A stretch of 30,658 bases of DNA from assembly GCA_031262135.1 (NCBI GenBank), contig JAISIG010000005.1, forward strand, positions 1 to 30,658. Direction: 5' to 3'. Below, piece by piece: positions 2,992 through 29,705 of this stretch (positions are counted from its first letter, which is position 1; each line of letters begins with the position of its first letter). The stretch comes from Endomicrobium sp. (GTDB taxonomy: Bacteria > Elusimicrobiota > Endomicrobiia > Endomicrobiales > Endomicrobiaceae). The notes below the pieces were generated by a model. That model was given only the letters and a program-made list of their open reading frames with translations. It searched no databases and was not told the DNA's origin. The translations under genes and the position numbers were made by a program.

Positions 2992-3912
2992 ATGGAAGAT
3001 CTAATTAAAAAATTAAACAAAATAAAAAAAGAAAAAAAGGCTGTGATACTAGCTCACATATATCAATTACCAGAGATTCAGGAGGTTGCAGATTTTATAG
3101 GAGATTCATTAGATTTAAGTAAAAAAGCCCAAAAAATTGGGAACTCTAGAAATATTATAGTTTTTTGTGGAGTACGCTTTATGGCAGAAACTGCTGCTAT
3201 CCTTAACCCTAATAAAAAAATAATAATACCAGATATTAATGCTAAGTGCCCTATGGCTGACATGATAGATTTAAATAAGTTAAAAAATATCAAATCTAAA
3301 TATAACAATCCAATAATTATTAGTTATATAAATACTCCTGCTATTGTAAAAGCTGAAAGTACTATATGTTGTACTTCATCTAATGCTATAAATGTAGTTA
3401 AAAGTGTTTCACATAATAAAGATATTGTATTTTTACCTGACCGGAATCTTGGATTATATGTAAAAAAACAGTCAGGTATAAACATGGATATCTTTGATGG
3501 ATTTTGCCCAACACATAATAATTTTATTTTACCACAACATGTACTAATCTTAAAGAAAAAATATCCTACAGCAGAAATTTTGGTACATCCTGAATGCAGA
3601 ATAGAGGTAAGCAACTTAGCAGATCATGTAATGTCGACATCTCAAATATGTAAATATGTTAAACAAAGTACAAAGAGAAAGTTTATTATAGGCACAGAAG
3701 TTGGCATAATATACAAACTAAAAAGAGATAATCCTAAAAAAAGTTTTTTTCCAATATCTTCCTTAGCAATATGTCCAAATATGAAAAAAATCACGCTTGA
3801 GAAATTAGTAGATGCATTAGAAAAAGAGGAAAATATAATTTCATTATCTGAGACAATACTGGAAAGAGCATACTATCCACTAAAAAAAATGCTAGACATT
3901 CCTACTTTTTAG
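2992..3912 (+). CDS. nadA: Quinolinate synthase A
   Basis: Cytosolic [4Fe-4S] enzyme that condenses iminoaspartate with dihydroxyacetone phosphate to form quinolinate for de novo NAD synthesis. The 306-residue length is typical of the family. Recognisable motifs are FCGVRFMAETA (59-69), the cluster cysteines at 86 (NAKCPMA), 172 (GFCPTH) and 261 (AICPNM), LVHPEC (197-202), and a DHVMSTSQ stretch near 211-218. All three cluster ligands are present, so the enzyme is probably active. No nadB or nadC is seen nearby, so the iminoaspartate source is unknown. An AAGGA lies about 14 bases upstream of the ATG, which is rather distant. The 3' end overlaps the convergent metH by 11 bases. Confidence 0.95.
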   Translation: MEDLIKKLNKIKKEKKAVILAHIYQLPEIQEVADFIGDSLDLSKKAQKIGNSRNIIVFCGVRFMAETAAILNPNKKIIIPDINAKCPMADMIDLNKLKNIKSKYNNPIIISYINTPAIVKAESTICCTSSNAINVVKSVSHNKDIVFLPDRNLGLYVKKQSGINMDIFDGFCPTHNNFILPQHVLILKKKYPTAEILVHPECRIEVSNLADHVMSTSQICKYVKQSTKRKFIIGTEVGIIYKLKRDNPKKSFFPISSLAICPNMKKITLEKLVDALEKEENIISLSETILERAYYPLKKMLDIPTF

Positions 3913-6334
3913 GAATTTTCATAAAACTTTTTATGTGTATAACAGCTTCCATGGCATCTTTAGCATAAGCATCTGCCCCTATATCAATGGAATATTGTTT
4001 AGTTACAGCTGCTCCTCCAATAATTACTTTGGTTTTTATTTGACTAAGGTTTCTTAAATGTATCACTGTCTTCATTTCAGGCATTGTTGTTGTCATTAAT
4101 GCAGATAGTCCTATAGCAATCGGATTAATTTGTTTGGCTTTTTTTATTATTGAATAAGGATCTACATTTATGCCCATATCAATAACATCAAACCCATAGC
4201 TTTCGAATACTGCTCCTACAATATTCTTCCCTATATCATGTATATCTCCTTTAACAGTAGCTATAATAATCGTACCTAAGGATAGGATAGTGTCCTTTTT
4301 GAGAATATTTTTTACAGTAGCAAAAGCAAGTTGTGCTACCTTAGCAGACATAATAATCTGAGGTAAAAAGTATTGTCTAGATGCAAATCGTTCTCCAACA
4401 ACGTTTAAAGCATTAATTATACATGAGCTTATTTTCTGAAAGTGATTGCAATCCCCTGAATTATTTGTAATAATTTGTTGGATAAGATCAATTATTCCAT
4501 CATCATCTCCATAGATAATAGCATTATAAAGTTGAGTATTAGGAGATAAATGTTTACTCCCGTTTGTTTTGGCTAAGTTATATTCAACATGTTGTTTATT
4601 AAAACTTTGCATATATTGTAAAATTGCATTTTCACTTTTATTTAACAGTAAATTTCTAGCTAAAATGTTATCAATACTCCAATCAGTATATGGATCTAAT
4701 ATAGCGAAATCAAGTCCAGATTCAATAGCCATTTTAAGGAAAGTAGAATTAAGTATTTGCCTTGAAGGTAATCCAAACGATATATTAGATATCCCTAATA
4801 TAAGAGAACATTCAGGATACAATTGTTTAGATAACTTCATAGCGTGTAACGTTTCTAACGCTTGAGTTTTAGATGCACTAATTGCAAGTACAAGATAATC
4901 GAAAATAACATTATGTCTATTGATTTTATATTTATCTACTAATTTAATAATATTTCCTGCTATTTGCAATCGTTCTTCAGACGTTTTAGGAATCCCATGT
5001 TCATCTGTTGTTAAAGCAATTACCATAGCTCCATATCGTTTAATTAATGGTAATATAGTATTTAATTTTGAAATATCTCCATTAACAGAATTTATAATTG
5101 GTTTTCCTGCACAATTTTTCATAGCTTCTTCTAGAGCTAAGATATTACTAGAATCTATACATATGGGTACTGATACCATTTCTTGGATTTTATTTACAGC
5201 ATTTTTTAAAAGTTTTACTTCATCTATATTAGGAACCCCAACATTCACATCTAATACTTGTGCTCCTGATTTAACTTGTGTGCGAGCTTCATATATTATA
5301 GATGATAGATTGTTTTGAGATAATTCTAACTGTAATTTTTTTCTATTAGTAGGATTAATGCGTTCTCCAACAAAGATAGGTTTTTTTAAAGAACTTATAT
5401 CAAAAGATAAAGTTCTTGTTGATAAAAAATATTTACTTTTATTATTACGTATTATTGGTCTTTTATTTTTTAATCTCTTCGACAATTCTAGTATAAAATC
5501 TGGGGTTGTTCCACAACAGCCTCCTAAAATATTAACTCCATAAGAATAAGCTTTTAAGCTAGATTCTACAAATTCATTTTTAGATTCTGGAAAAATAGTT
5601 TCATTGTTTATTAAGATAGGCATTCCTGCATTTGGTTTAAATGATATAGGCAAATTGGTATTAGCACATACAAATTTTATTAATTTAGCTAAATCTCTAG
5701 ATCCTATTGAGCAATTTAACCCTAAAACATCTACTCCAAGACTTTCAGCCATCACAATAAAACTTTGTAAATCTGTTCCTGTTACTGTAGTTCCATCTTG
5801 TAAAAATGTCATTTGTGCAATAATAGGGCCATCAAAATTATCCTTTGTAGCAAGGATAGCTGCCTTTAACTCTTTGATTTCAGTTATAGTTTCAATAACT
5901 ATTATATCAACTCCGTATTTATTTAATAAAGAAGCTTGAAATGAAAAAGATTTATATGCCTCATTAAAAGATAATGTTCCTAATGGTTCAATGTACACCC
6001 CTAATGATGAAATATCTCCTGCAACTATAACATCAGAGGATAGTGTTCGTATAATACTAATACCAGCCTCGAATATAGCATCAGCTTTTTCTAGTAAGTT
6101 AGATTCTTTTAGCTTCATTGGATTTAATCCAAAAGTATTTGCTAAAATTATATTTGATCCAGCTTGAATGTATGAATTGTATATCTCTTTAATTTTTTCT
6201 GGAAACTTTATATTTAATTCTTCTGGAATCTTAACATTATCAAGATATTTTTTTCGTTGTAACTCAGTGCCAGTAGCTCCGTCCATGAGTAAGACACGAC
6301 TAGATATTATATTTAAAAAAGTTTTTTTATCCAT
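3902..6334 (-). CDS. metH: Cobalamin-dependent methionine synthase, short form without activation domain
   Basis: Transfers a methyl group from methyltetrahydrofolate through cob(I)alamin to homocysteine. Its 810 residues hold, in order: the homocysteine-binding barrel (about 10-290) with zinc cysteines C208 (GLNCS) and C273/C274 (GGCCGTTP); the pterin-binding barrel (about 315-575, beginning FVGERINPTNR); the helical cobalamin cap (about 600-680); and the B12-binding Rossmann domain with GDIHDIGKNI (697-706), where H699 is the cobalt ligand. The C-terminal S-adenosylmethionine-dependent reactivation domain of the E. coli enzyme (about 1,220 residues) is absent and is supplied by the gene five bases upstream. 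AAGGA about ten bases before the ATG supports the start. All key residues are present. Confidence 0.95.
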   Translation of the reverse strand: MDKKTFLNIISSRVLLMDGATGTELQRKKYLDNVKIPEELNIKFPEKIKEIYNSYIQAGSNIILANTFGLNPMKLKESNLLEKADAIFEAGISIIRTLSSDVIVAGDISSLGVYIEPLGTLSFNEAYKSFSFQASLLNKYGVDIIVIETITEIKELKAAILATKDNFDGPIIAQMTFLQDGTTVTGTDLQSFIVMAESLGVDVLGLNCSIGSRDLAKLIKFVCANTNLPISFKPNAGMPILINNETIFPESKNEFVESSLKAYSYGVNILGGCCGTTPDFILELSKRLKNKRPIIRNNKSKYFLSTRTLSFDISSLKKPIFVGERINPTNRKKLQLELSQNNLSSIIYEARTQVKSGAQVLDVNVGVPNIDEVKLLKNAVNKIQEMVSVPICIDSSNILALEEAMKNCAGKPIINSVNGDISKLNTILPLIKRYGAMVIALTTDEHGIPKTSEERLQIAGNIIKLVDKYKINRHNVIFDYLVLAISASKTQALETLHAMKLSKQLYPECSLILGISNISFGLPSRQILNSTFLKMAIESGLDFAILDPYTDWSIDNILARNLLLNKSENAILQYMQSFNKQHVEYNLAKTNGSKHLSPNTQLYNAIIYGDDDGIIDLIQQIITNNSGDCNHFQKISSCIINALNVVGERFASRQYFLPQIIMSAKVAQLAFATVKNILKKDTILSLGTIIIATVKGDIHDIGKNIVGAVFESYGFDVIDMGINVDPYSIIKKAKQINPIAIGLSALMTTTMPEMKTVIHLRNLSQIKTKVIIGGAAVTKQYSIDIGADAYAKDAMEAVIHIKSFMKIPKK

Positions 6335-6339
6335 CTAAT

Positions 6340-6999
6340 TTAAATCCTTTTTGTACTTAAAGACATATTTTTTTTGTTTACTCCAAGTATAGCTGAAATA
6401 GATTTTTCAGGTAACATTTGATAAGATTTGTTTACATAAATTCCTATTTCACGTGCACCGATCCAATTCAATAATGCTTCATTTCGCTTGAGCAGCCAAT
6501 CTCCATATCCAGGGGAATATCTTTTAGTTAGTAAATTGTTATTGATATTCTCATAATGTTTAATTTGTGAATGTATATTCACTATTAAGTTTTCTACAGC
6601 TACTGAGCCAGCAGCATCTAAAATTACAGCATTCACAAGCTCTCTTTTAACAATAAAATCATGTACTTTTTTCTCTAAATCAATTCCTATTGTAACAGCA
6701 ATGCCATAAATTTTAAAACAGTGTTGAAAAAGTTTGCTCACATCACAACTAGTAATAACATACCCATTATCAAGCATAATACTAGTTTTACTAAACTTTA
6801 ATAAATTAGCATAAGCTAATGAACATTTTGGATGAATGATCTTTAATGCTAAAAGTCTAATATCTTCTATTAAGGTTAATATTTTTTTTGTTAAATAGGT
6901 TTTATTTTGTATATATCCAAGTCTTTTTAATAACTCATCATAAGAAATAGATATATTATTAAAGTTATATTTCAACATTCGTTTATGATAACAAAACAT
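6340..6999 (-). CDS. Stand-alone methionine synthase reactivation-domain protein
   Basis: A 219-residue protein resembling the activation (reactivation) domain normally at the C-terminus of MetH, which binds S-adenosylmethionine and helps remethylate oxidised cobalamin. The clearest motif is RYSPGYGDW (160-168), followed by a segment ending MLPEKSISAILGV (195-207), the typical close of this domain. An alanine/glycine-rich stretch AVILDAAGSVAVENLI lies at 124-139. It sits immediately upstream of metH on the same strand with a five-base gap, so the two are very likely co-translated partners, as in the split methionine synthases of Thermotoga and several clostridia. A second possible start is M8 (6978); neither has a clear ribosome binding site. 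Confidence 0.85.
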   Translation of the reverse strand: MFCYHKRMLKYNFNNISISYDELLKRLGYIQNKTYLTKKILTLIEDIRLLALKIIHPKCSLAYANLLKFSKTSIMLDNGYVITSCDVSKLFQHCFKIYGIAVTIGIDLEKKVHDFIVKRELVNAVILDAAGSVAVENLIVNIHSQIKHYENINNNLLTKRYSPGYGDWLLKRNEALLNWIGAREIGIYVNKSYQMLPEKSISAILGVNKKNMSLSTKRI

Positions 7000-26673: not shown

Positions 26674-27888
26674 TTATATAATATTATTATTTTTGATTCT
26701 TATAGCAAACTGTTTCGCAATATTATAACATTCATTTAATTCATCATTAGTAGGATTAAAAACACAACTAAAACAAAATTGATTTAATGTTAATGTAATA
26801 TTTGAGAGTACTTTTTTTATATCATCTATTGCCTCTCCACTCCAGCCATACGAACCAAATACAGAAGATAATCTAGTATTTACCTTATTGATATATTTAA
26901 TACAATTTAATAAAGTTGACATTACGGGTAACATTTGCCTATTGTTAGTTGATGAGCCAATAATCCATCCTTTTGAATCAAGCATATGTGATAAGATATC
27001 TGTTTTATCTATTTTTGTGACATTAAATAAATAAGCATCAAGGTGTTCTGAAGTAACACCTTCAAGCATACTATAAGCTATTTTTTCTGTAGAATGCCAC
27101 ATTGATTCATAAATTATTGTAACTTTATCTTTTAATAAATTTGATGCCCAATTAATATATTGTTGAGTAATCCTACATATATATTTCCGCCATACTAATC
27201 CATGACTTGGAGCAATTAATTTAATTGGTAATTTTACTAAAATATCTAATTTACTTAGAATTACAGGGTTAAATGTCCACAATATATTTGCATAATATTT
27301 TTTTGCTTCTTCAAATAATATAGAACAATGGATACCTAAATCATCATCAAATATTTGATTTGTTGCATAATGTTGTCCAAATATATCATTGGAAAATAAA
27401 ATATTATCTAACTTGGAATATGTGACCATACTATCTGGCCAATGCATCATAGGAGTTTCTATAAATTGTAAAGTTCTTTTCCCTATAGTAATCTCTTGAA
27501 AAGATGAAATAGTTCTCCATTCAATATTATATAACATAACATTATCATTATAATATTTTAGGAATCCTTCTTTTGCTTTACGTGTACTATAAATAATAAC
27601 GTTATAGGAACATGACGCTAAGACTTGCATAATAGCTCCAGAATGATCAGGCTCAATGTGATTAAGAATTATAATATCTATTTTTTTAGGATTTATAATC
27701 TTTTTAATGTTAGAAATAAATTGATTTTTATAAGATTGATGTACACCATCAATTAAAACATTTTTTTTATCAAGTACTAAGTAGGAGTTATATGTTGTTC
27801 CTCTTCTTATTTTATAAGTAGATTCATGAAATTCTCTATTGTTCCAATCAATGACTCCTACAGAATACACATTATCTTTTAATAACAT
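26674..27888 (-). CDS. fprA: Flavodiiron protein (rubredoxin:oxygen oxidoreductase type)
   Basis: Reduces O2 to water (or NO to N2O) with electrons from rubredoxin, protecting anaerobes. It has 404 residues: a metallo-beta-lactamase-like domain (1-250) with diiron ligands H77, E79, D81 (HIEPDH), H149 (MHWPDS), D168 (FSNDIF) and H229 (APSHG), then a flavodoxin domain (about 255-404) opening IIYESMWHSTEKIA for FMN. All metal ligands are present. No C-terminal rubredoxin or flavin reductase domain is fused; the separate rubredoxin three genes upstream is the likely donor, as with Roo of Desulfovibrio. It lies 16 bases after iscU. Confidence 0.95.
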   Translation of the reverse strand: MLLKDNVYSVGVIDWNNREFHESTYKIRRGTTYNSYLVLDKKNVLIDGVHQSYKNQFISNIKKIINPKKIDIIILNHIEPDHSGAIMQVLASCSYNVIIYSTRKAKEGFLKYYNDNVMLYNIEWRTISSFQEITIGKRTLQFIETPMMHWPDSMVTYSKLDNILFSNDIFGQHYATNQIFDDDLGIHCSILFEEAKKYYANILWTFNPVILSKLDILVKLPIKLIAPSHGLVWRKYICRITQQYINWASNLLKDKVTIIYESMWHSTEKIAYSMLEGVTSEHLDAYLFNVTKIDKTDILSHMLDSKGWIIGSSTNNRQMLPVMSTLLNCIKYINKVNTRLSSVFGSYGWSGEAIDDIKKVLSNITLTLNQFCFSCVFNPTNDELNECYNIAKQFAIRIKNNNII

Positions 27889-27904: not shown

Positions 27905-28294
27905 CTAAATTTCCTTTTTATTTTTCATTTTCAATTTATAATTTTGAATAGCTTTATGTAATGCATTTGCCCCTAAATTTGAACAATGTATTTTATTTTT
28001 TGGTAATCCATCTAATGCTTGTGCAACATCTTCATTTGTTAACTTTTGTACTTCATCAAGAGTTTTTCCTAATACCATCTCTGAAGCCATAGATGATACT
28101 GCTATTGCGGCTGCACATCCAAACGTTTGAAATTTAACGTCTATTATTCTATTATTATGTACTTTAATATAAAATGTCATCATATCACCACATATGGGAT
28201 TCCCAACTTGTCCAACACCATCAGGATGATCAATATACCCAACATTTCTTGGATTCATAAAATGATCCATTACTTTTTTAGAATAAAATGACAT
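27905..28294 (-). CDS. iscU: Iron-sulfur cluster scaffold IscU/NifU N-terminal type
   Basis: Scaffold on which [2Fe-2S] clusters are built. From the ATG at 28294 it has 129 residues. The three cluster cysteines are C35 (GNPICGD, with D37), C60 (TFGCAAAIA) and C104 (KIHCSNLG). The HCS form of the last motif is that of NifU rather than of E. coli IscU. A longer frame starts at TTG (28306), but MSFYSKKVMDHFMNPRN is the normal beginning. It directly follows the iscS-like gene (23 bases). All ligands are present, which contrasts with the altered active site of the adjacent iscS-like protein. Confidence 0.93.
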   Translation of the reverse strand: MSFYSKKVMDHFMNPRNVGYIDHPDGVGQVGNPICGDMMTFYIKVHNNRIIDVKFQTFGCAAAIAVSSMASEMVLGKTLDEVQKLTNEDVAQALDGLPKNKIHCSNLGANALHKAIQNYKLKMKNKKEI

Positions 28295-28317
28295 TTTTCT
28301 TACCAACTTTTATTTGA

Positions 28318-29523
28318 TCAATTATTTATATTATTATCAATTCCTTTGGAAACATTTAAGTGTAAAGAAGATATTTTCCTTAGCTTAGAGACACATTTTG
28401 GTAATTCTATCAAAACAGAACGAATGTCAGCCATAGTATTAAATTTTGATAAATTAAATATAATTGTTCCTTGTTGTAGCATCCTATCTACTTTGATTGC
28501 CTTTAATACATGTGACCCTTTTAAATTATAACTAGAACATGCAGATCCACTAGATACAATAATTCCTAAGGCATCTAATAATAATACTAAAGATTCTCCC
28601 TCAACAAATTTTACAGACAGATTTATATTAGAACATAGCCTGTTTTTAATAACAGGTCCATTTAAACTAATATAGTCTATCTTTTTAGTGATTCCTACTA
28701 ACATTTTATCTCGTAATGCTATGATTTTAGCATTATTTATTTTAAATTCTGTTCTTGCTATTTCACATGCTTTTCCGAATCCAACAATTGCAGGTACATT
28801 TTCAGTCCCAGCACGTTGTCCAAATTCTTGTATACCACCATGTATTTGTTGGCTTAGCTTTACTCCTCTTCTAATATACAATGCTGCGGCACCTTTTGGC
28901 CCATGAATAACAGAACTTGAAACAGTTAACATATCAACATCTAAATCTTTAACATTAATTTTAACTTTTCCACATGCACTAACTGCGTCTGTGTGAAAAA
29001 TAATATTATTGTTAGACTGTTCTCGAACTATAGATACAAGTTCTTTTATATTTTGTATTGTTCCAATTTCTGGATTAGCATATTGTATAGATATTAGAAT
29101 TGTATTGTCTAAAATACTATTTTTCAGTGCAGTCCTATCTATACTCCCATATTTATTCACTGGAAGAAATGTCACCTGAACTCCTTGTTGTATGAGCAAT
29201 TTTAATGTTTGAAGAATAGATATATGTTCTATTGAAGATACTATTATATGCTTAATGGGATTTCTCGATAATTCCACAATTCCTTTGATAGCTAAATTAT
29301 TAGCTTCTGTTCCACAAGACGTAAAGATAATTTCATCAGGGTATGCATTAAATAACTTAGCTACATTATATCTTGCTTTTTCAACTGCTTTTTTAACAAC
29401 TATTCCAAAGGAATGAATACTTTGTGGAACTCCATAATTATTACAAAAAAATGGTAACATTTCATCTAAAACTATATTATCAAGTTTACTACTGGATTGA
29501 TTATCAAAATATCTCTTTTTCAT
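28318..29523 (-). CDS. iscS: IscS/NifS-like protein lacking the PLP lysine
   Basis: A class V aminotransferase-fold protein of 401 residues, matching cysteine desulfurase along its entire length: TSCGTEANNLAIKG (68-81), H100 in IEHISI, HTDAV (177-181), GPKGAAALYIRRG (208-220), RAGTEN (237-242), and the mobile-loop cysteine C329 in SSGSACSS. The usual SxHK motif that ends in the PLP lysine, just before I/F-x-GPKG, reads SSSV (202-205): histidine is S204 and lysine is V205. Other cofactor contacts differ too: NNE is NPE (P151), the Gln of DAxQ is S182, and QER is QEF. The frame is intact, so this is not ordinary decay. Desulfurase activity is unlikely; a scaffold role for IscU is proposed. Confidence 0.9.
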   Translation of the reverse strand: MKKRYFDNQSSSKLDNIVLDEMLPFFCNNYGVPQSIHSFGIVVKKAVEKARYNVAKLFNAYPDEIIFTSCGTEANNLAIKGIVELSRNPIKHIIVSSIEHISILQTLKLLIQQGVQVTFLPVNKYGSIDRTALKNSILDNTILISIQYANPEIGTIQNIKELVSIVREQSNNNIIFHTDAVSACGKVKINVKDLDVDMLTVSSSVIHGPKGAAALYIRRGVKLSQQIHGGIQEFGQRAGTENVPAIVGFGKACEIARTEFKINNAKIIALRDKMLVGITKKIDYISLNGPVIKNRLCSNINLSVKFVEGESLVLLLDALGIIVSSGSACSSYNLKGSHVLKAIKVDRMLQQGTIIFNLSKFNTMADIRSVLIELPKCVSKLRKISSLHLNVSKGIDNNINN

Positions 29524-29537
29524 ATAAGCATATTTGT

Positions 29538-29705
29538 TTACTCATTTTCTACTTTTTCAAAAGCATTTTTAGAAGCTCCACATATAGGACATACCCAATC
29601 ATTTGGTAATTGCTCAAACTTAGTTTGAGCAGCTATTCCACTTTCTGGAATACCAAATTGAGAATCATATGTATATCCACATGCCATACATATCCATTTT
29701 TCCAT
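29538..29705 (-). CDS. rd: Rubredoxin
   Basis: A 55-residue cytosolic one-iron electron carrier. The Fe(Cys)4 site is C6 and C9 ([11 protein letters not shown]) and C39 and C42 (WVCPICGA). The segment [17 protein letters not shown] has the normal rubredoxin pattern. GGAG lies nine bases before the ATG. It is the first gene of a leftward run rubredoxin-iscS-iscU-flavodiiron protein; the iscS start follows its stop by 14 bases. The likely role is electron supply to the flavodiiron protein. Confidence 0.95.

Follow-up and report, generated by a model that had tools for sequence, protein, structure and literature searches.

Among the iron-sulfur (Fe-S) cluster assembly pairs closest to the one described here is that of the archaeon Archaeoglobus fulgidus, whose IscS is reported to be inactive and to have aspartate in place of the catalytic lysine (PMC7585200; articles are cited by PMC number, in each case from an excerpt). 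In that system the cluster is held by three IscU cysteines together with Cys321 of IscS (PMC9769115). The catalytic lysine is also absent from IscS1 of Methanosarcina acetivorans, for which a role like that of A. fulgidus IscS has been proposed (PMC7585200). Two further systems serve for comparison: the Escherichia coli iron-sulfur cluster (ISC) system, in which IscS is a desulfurase with Lys206, Gln183, Asn155, His205 and Arg354 and IscU carries Ser69 and Ile108, and the minimal IscS-IscU pair (MIS), which has been described with a cysteine desulfurase (PMC12192291).

A bacterial pair resembling the archaeal ones lies in a 30,658-nucleotide stretch (the window; contig JAISIG010000005.1 of assembly GCA_031262135.1) from Endomicrobium sp., very probably a termite-gut endosymbiont of the Elusimicrobiota. 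The genome comprises 446,572 bases on 49 contigs and is an estimated 63% complete; the absence of a gene from any single genome is weak evidence. A sequence-only reading of the window had noticed an IscS-like frame lacking the lysine that forms the pyridoxal 5'-phosphate (PLP) Schiff base. This IscS/NifS-family gene, named iscS* here together with like lysine-less copies (protein, IscS*), is indeed a single open frame of 401 codons and lies on the minus strand, which that reading had not given (Table 1). Comparison of sequences establishes that IscS* has lost the catalytic set and retained the mobile-loop Cys329, is under purifying selection, is paired with an IscU that carries its own signature, and coexists with a second desulfurase bearing the catalytic residues. 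Our preferred reading, to which we give a probability of about 0.68, is that IscS* is a non-desulfurase that would form the structural half of an Fe-S assembly complex with its co-specialised IscU, with Cys329 providing the fourth ligand to the [2Fe-2S] cluster as it forms; we infer this ligation from the analogy with A. fulgidus IscS. The sulfur would not come from cysteine in the pocket of IscS* itself but would enter as sulfide, from anoxic surroundings, through release by a separate lysine-bearing desulfurase, or both, and that desulfurase would additionally supply tRNA thiolation via MnmA.

Like the A. fulgidus pair (PDB 4eb5, 4eb7 and 4hvk), the window IscS* lacks the lysine and keeps the mobile-loop cysteine, and it adjoins an IscU with an HCSN motif; A. 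fulgidus IscU likewise has Asn108. The two pairs differ in that A. fulgidus IscS has aspartate where bacterial copies have valine or glutamine, keeps Asn155 (NNEIG), and has glutamate where bacterial rows have Lys335, as does the archaeal row from the Methanoperedenaceae, while position 69 of IscU is threonine in A. fulgidus and valine in the window. M. acetivorans IscS1, compared by description, differs in being archaeal and in being accompanied by an active lysine-bearing IscS2 with IscU2. With MIS the window locus shares the two-gene unit and an IscU above the TIGR03419 cut-off, but its IscS partner is predicted not to be a desulfurase.

The catalytic pocket was compared between 41 lysine-bearing rows and 59 bacterial lysine-less rows, with one long-branch lysine-bearing row and two archaeal rows set aside. 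Lys206 (E. coli numbering) is present in 41/41 lysine-bearing and 0/59 lysine-less rows, and in the window it is Val205 of S202-S203-S204-V205, as the sequence-only reading had stated. His205 falls from 41/41 to 12/59 (Ser204 in the window), Gln183 from 41/41 to 4/59 (Ser182), Asn155 from 40/41 to 7/59 (Pro151), and Arg354, the substrate-carboxylate arginine, from 41/41 to 0/59, being leucine, valine, isoleucine or threonine in all 59 (Ile355). Two of the three further altered cofactor contacts proposed earlier thus stand (Pro151 and Ser182), and Ser204 and Ile355 are added to them. The third, a phenylalanine in QEFG, is residue 234 rather than 233 and was rejected as a cofactor contact, since the equivalent site (E. 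coli Arg237) varies among the 41 lysine-bearing IscS (arginine 22, asparagine 8, lysine 5, phenylalanine 2). By alignment, none of the cysteine-desulfurase hallmarks (the SxHK lysine, the substrate arginine, and the PLP-contact glutamine and asparagine) is present in the window IscS*. The equivalents of His104, Asp180 and Cys328 are each kept in 59/59 lysine-less rows and that of Thr243 in 58/59, and the lysine-less rows have gained near-fixed residues, namely Asn75 (57/59), Ser102 (59/59), Lys335 (56/59, arginine in the other three) and Gln351 (53/59), all four of which the window IscS* carries. In E. coli IscS, the K206A, Q183E and H104Q variants are reported without desulfurase activity, whereas R354K retains it (PMC9978102). 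Taken with these inactive variants, the pocket losses indicate that IscS* should be without desulfurase activity, which supports the earlier proposal of a non-catalytic protein like A. fulgidus IscS.

The IscU partner carries a signature of its own. The earlier description of an intact IscU beside IscS* holds: equivalents of the ligands Cys37, Asp39, Cys63, His105 and Cys106 are present in the window IscU, and they are kept in every row except one that is cut. Among 128 IscU adjoining an IscS, counts that are not independent of one another, Elusimicrobiota IscU beside a lysine-less IscS has Val69 and Asn108 in 57/58 (the remaining one is cut), that beside a lysine-bearing IscS has Ser/Thr69 and Val108 in 12/12, and the single IscU adjoining both kinds has Val69 and Asn108. 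In other phyla, the Val69/Asn108 combination occurs in 16/19 IscU beside a lysine-less IscS and in 0/38 beside a lysine-bearing one, two of the latter combining Asn108 with Ser69. The Val69/Asn108 label needs three changes on the IscU tree. Two genomes hold both kinds of pair at separate sites, each with the matching IscU (G054, loci L034 and L130; G067, loci L185 and L186). This correspondence, together with the two-pair genomes, suggests that IscS* and its IscU move and evolve together. In the first phylum sample, iscU lay directly downstream of 41 of 49 lysine-less copies and 685 bases away from one, with one copy at a contig end and none seen for six, whereas no IscU was found within the stretch examined for 20 of 24 lysine-bearing copies; in a later sample from other families, IscU stood beside 9 of 10 lysine-bearing copies. 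An apparent IscS-IscU fusion in some phyla proved wrong, the large negative distances being overlapping stop-to-stop frames, and no fused frame was present among the open frames over 300 aa that match IscU (the three listed, of 309-406 aa, match IscU at the start, and none is long enough for both proteins). IscU was found in 38 of the 39 genus genomes, each with at most one strong match. Three incomplete genomes (G008, G018 and G029) have a Val69/Asn108 IscU with no lysine-less IscS nearby or at a distance, possibly through loss. Many of the genus genomes also encode a protein of roughly 240 aa that matches NifU_N weakly (18-24 bits); in the window genome the match is at contig C31, 3817-3987.

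The lysine-less state is conserved within the genus and beyond it. The residue could be read in 33 of the 39 genus genomes searched, as valine (26), alanine (3), threonine (2), serine (1) or isoleucine (1) and never as lysine; the other six comprise a partial gene in G002 and five genomes without a lysine-less copy (G008, G018, G029, G034 and G060). A sequencing error is ruled out, because turning GTT into a lysine codon would take three base changes and 33/33 genus copies lack the lysine. Other genera of the family yielded 18 readable copies, with valine, alanine or serine at the site, and lysine-less copies from other Elusimicrobiota families have glutamine, with one methionine. The ratio of nonsynonymous to synonymous substitution rates (dN/dS) is 0.10-0.20 for the 14 closest pairs among 18 lysine-less genus copies and 0.13-0.48 for the 14 closest pairs of 11 lysine-bearing copies; between the window gene and one genus copy (L006), dN is 0.26 and dS 0.91. 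Endosymbiont decay is rejected in view of these low ratios and of the sharing of the state with larger-genome relatives. The change was earlier placed in this bacterium, but the loss is shared within the family and with members of other Elusimicrobiota families and other phyla.

To place the gene more widely, the best 80 named loci among the matches listed for a lysine-less profile were taken from a scan of genome contigs, a sample that favours the lysine-less form by design. Thirty lack the lysine, two of them (L035 and L036) duplicating genus genomes, and 50 have it; the other lysine-less loci belong to Dehalococcoidia and other Chloroflexota, Nitrospirota, Omnitrophota, Margulisiibacteriota, Acidobacteriota, Clostridia, WOR-3, Methanoperedenaceae and others. 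Run against proteins, the lysine-less profile gave 7,999 scored matches, of which the best 120, a list biased in the same direction, all lack the lysine and all retain Cys329, His100, Asp179 and Arg237. An unrooted IscS tree comprised 103 rows (96 of the 151 rows taken from loci, the window copy, five database proteins and E. coli IscS), with trait columns removed and duplicates and copies under 300 aa excluded. The lysine label needs two changes, and the 59 bacterial lysine-less rows fall on one side of a branch with a Shimodaira-Hasegawa-like approximate likelihood ratio (SH-aLRT) support of 97. The two archaeal lysine-less rows stand on an open fork in the free quick tree; holding all 61 lysine-less rows together, A. 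fulgidus not being among them, gave a tree 20.8 log-likelihood units better (approximately unbiased test, p 0.771). IscS* belongs to an old lysine-less lineage that spans several bacterial phyla and from which the state has been inherited, and a single ancient loss of the lysine is the simplest reading, though unproved. Lysine-bearing IscS with its own IscU occurs at twelve loci in Elusimicrobiota families f12, f13, f16 and others, and lysine-less IscS was not found among the copies read from f13 and f16. A phylum-wide tally by bit score was dropped because the scores overlap (563.6 for lysine-bearing L130, 547.6 for lysine-less L022).

Table 1. Features of the iscS* locus in the window and the evidence for each.
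Feature	Position	Strand	Evidence
iscS*, lysine-less IscS/NifS-family protein, predicted non-desulfurase, 401 aa	28318..29523	minus	open reading frame (ORF), TIGR03402 match, alignment, AlphaFold2 model
Val205 codon GTT, PLP Schiff-base lysine position (E. coli K206)	28909..28911	minus	alignment
Ser182 codon AGT, E. coli Gln183 position	28978..28980	minus	alignment
Pro151 codon CCA, E. coli Asn155 position	29071..29073	minus	alignment
Ile355 codon ATA, E. coli Arg354 position (substrate-carboxylate Arg)	28459..28461	minus	alignment
Cys329 codon TGT, mobile-loop cysteine (E. coli C328; A. fulgidus IscS C321)	28537..28539	minus	alignment
iscU, cluster ligands kept, Val69/Asn108 signature (HCSNL)	27905..28306	minus	TIGR03419 195.9 bits, cut-off 187.9
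Rubredoxin, 55 aa, directly upstream of iscS*	29538..29705	minus	NF045768 80.7 bits, below cut-off 90
FprA-like flavodiiron protein, directly downstream of iscU	26674..27888	minus	best NF008887 367.8 bits, below cut-off 635

The locus thus reads rubredoxin, iscS*, iscU and FprA-like flavodiiron protein along the minus strand. Within the stretches examined, some of which stop early, a rubredoxin frame accompanies 31 of the 33 genus loci with lysine-less IscS (window included), IscU 30 and an FprA-like frame 24; at 18 loci from other genera of the family the numbers are 10, 15 and 9. IscS* falls below every curated cut-off among its 19 NCBIfam matches (best TIGR03402, 451.3 bits against 530.75); the lysine-bearing paralogue also misses that cut-off (513.1), yet passes NF002806 (334.1 against 304). 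In an AlphaFold2 monomer model (mean predicted local distance difference test, pLDDT, 91.0; predicted template modelling score, pTM, 0.89), the class V fold of the IscS kind is retained, in keeping with the claim that the whole fold is preserved. Cys329, which is kept as that reading said, lies in a loop with pLDDT under 50, so the model gives no information on whether it reaches IscU. Elsewhere in the window, positions 3902-6334 encode a MetH-like protein of 810 aa whose metH match ends at model position 858 of 1182, and the neighbouring 6340-6999 encodes a 219-aa product without an NCBIfam match, which we would guess to be a split activation domain.

The sequence-only reading had predicted that tRNA thiolation and other persulfide-dependent pathways would be lost or served by another enzyme, but the predicted loss does not follow. 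The window genome encodes a second NifS-type protein (contig C25, 6298-7455) with the motifs NNEIG, HTDAIQ, SAHK, GSIR and GSAC, and this gene has the lysine in 15/15 genus copies read. PF00266 matches fall into two score bands, and each of the 14 genus genomes that are at least 90% complete has one in either band; the lysine-less state was read in all 14 and the lysine-bearing state in five. MnmA exceeds its cut-off in 37/39 genus genomes, the window genome's own copy running off contig C2, and SufB/D is absent from all 39 searched. ThiI gave weak matches alone (best 31.3 bits), several of them within mnmA, so its presence is unsupported, and no operon of the lysine-bearing gene with mnmA is claimed for G028, where some 700 bases and another open frame separate the two and they are encoded on opposite strands.

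How sulfur reaches IscS* separates the preferred reading from its nearest rival, a division of labour in which the lysine-bearing desulfurase is the obligatory donor, passing persulfide to Cys329 or IscU, perhaps in a mixed dimer, and free sulfide has no role. At five loci of a sister genus (L160-L164), the order is lysine-bearing desulfurase, IscS* and IscU, with abutting open frames in L161, and at L151 it is IscS*, IscU and lysine-bearing desulfurase; these six clusters favour the desulfurase as supplier. The paired score bands of the 14 most complete genomes also fit such an arrangement, as does the retention of Thr243, which presumably reaches the active site of the other subunit. The scarcity of IscU near lysine-bearing copies in the first sample speaks against it, as does a Dehalococcoidia metagenome-assembled genome (G168, a single 1.12 Mb chromosome) that has IscS*, an IscU bearing the HCSN motif, MnmA and a SufB-like protein but no lysine-bearing desulfurase in the five of six PF00266 matches examined. 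We regard obligatory donation as possible but rather doubtful. IscS* was found in 20 genomes from other phyla, of unknown completeness. In 18 of them the matches read include a lysine-bearing, desulfurase-type class V protein (in G184 it is 519 aa and was assigned by eye); the other two are G168 and G180, the latter with two lysine-less copies and no lysine-bearing one among the two read. On the side of sulfide, H2S is reported to rescue E. coli without iscS, but not without iscU (PMC13015791). Sulfide as the only source, in line with the earlier proposal, is possible but unsupported, and sulfide-fed and desulfurase-fed routes may both exist.

Cysteine synthase (TIGR01136, cysK) exceeds its cut-off in only 5/39 genus genomes, and in several others stop codons break the gene, which gives the impression that cysteine synthesis is being lost. 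In a Dehalococcoidia locus (CP070693.1), the IscS*-IscU pair is flanked by a thiC/Thi4-like stretch on one side and a DsrE-like gene on the other, named by eye; thiazole synthesis next to a sulfide-fed cluster machine would be compatible.

A second alternative, that IscS* binds PLP non-covalently through His100, Asp179 and the phosphate site, for another reaction or for sensing cysteine or PLP, is unlikely. The retained His104, Asp180 and Thr243 equivalents would suit it, some PLP remains on E. coli K206A (PMC9978102), and PLP is named in a figure legend for the A. fulgidus IscS-IscU structure (PMC9769115), but Gln183, Asn155, the substrate arginine and mostly His205 have been lost along with the lysine. 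Under the preferred reading, too, IscS* may still bind PLP non-covalently. A relic or degenerating duplicate without specific function, which the reduced and AT-rich endosymbiont genome, the interrupted cysK copies and the five genus genomes without a copy (none at least 90% complete) might suggest, is very improbable and already disfavoured given the low dN/dS, the sharing of the state with larger-genome family members and other phyla, the newly near-invariant Asn75, Ser102, Lys335 and Gln351, and the maintained operon and IscU signature.

The preferred reading can be tentatively extended, at somewhat less than even odds, to an ancient second ISC branch in Elusimicrobiota, Chloroflexota, Nitrospirota, WOR-3, Omnitrophota, Margulisiibacteriota, archaea and others, in which IscS* would be a non-enzyme half-scaffold co-evolved with Asn108 IscU, clusters would be made from sulfide, and some organisms would have no cysteine desulfurase at all. 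We found no description of a bacterial lysine-less IscS clade in the searches made of the open-licence PMC literature. Judged by its sequence distribution, lysine-less IscS is no archaeal oddity but a form that bacteria conserve together with an IscU of its own, and its occurrence in bacteria makes the question testable there; a cultivated Endomicrobium exists. Where the databases gave these genes a name, those shown read cysteine desulfurase, and a set of genes so called are probably not desulfurases, which would affect how sulfur metabolism in anaerobes and Fe-S synthesis before oxygen are modelled.
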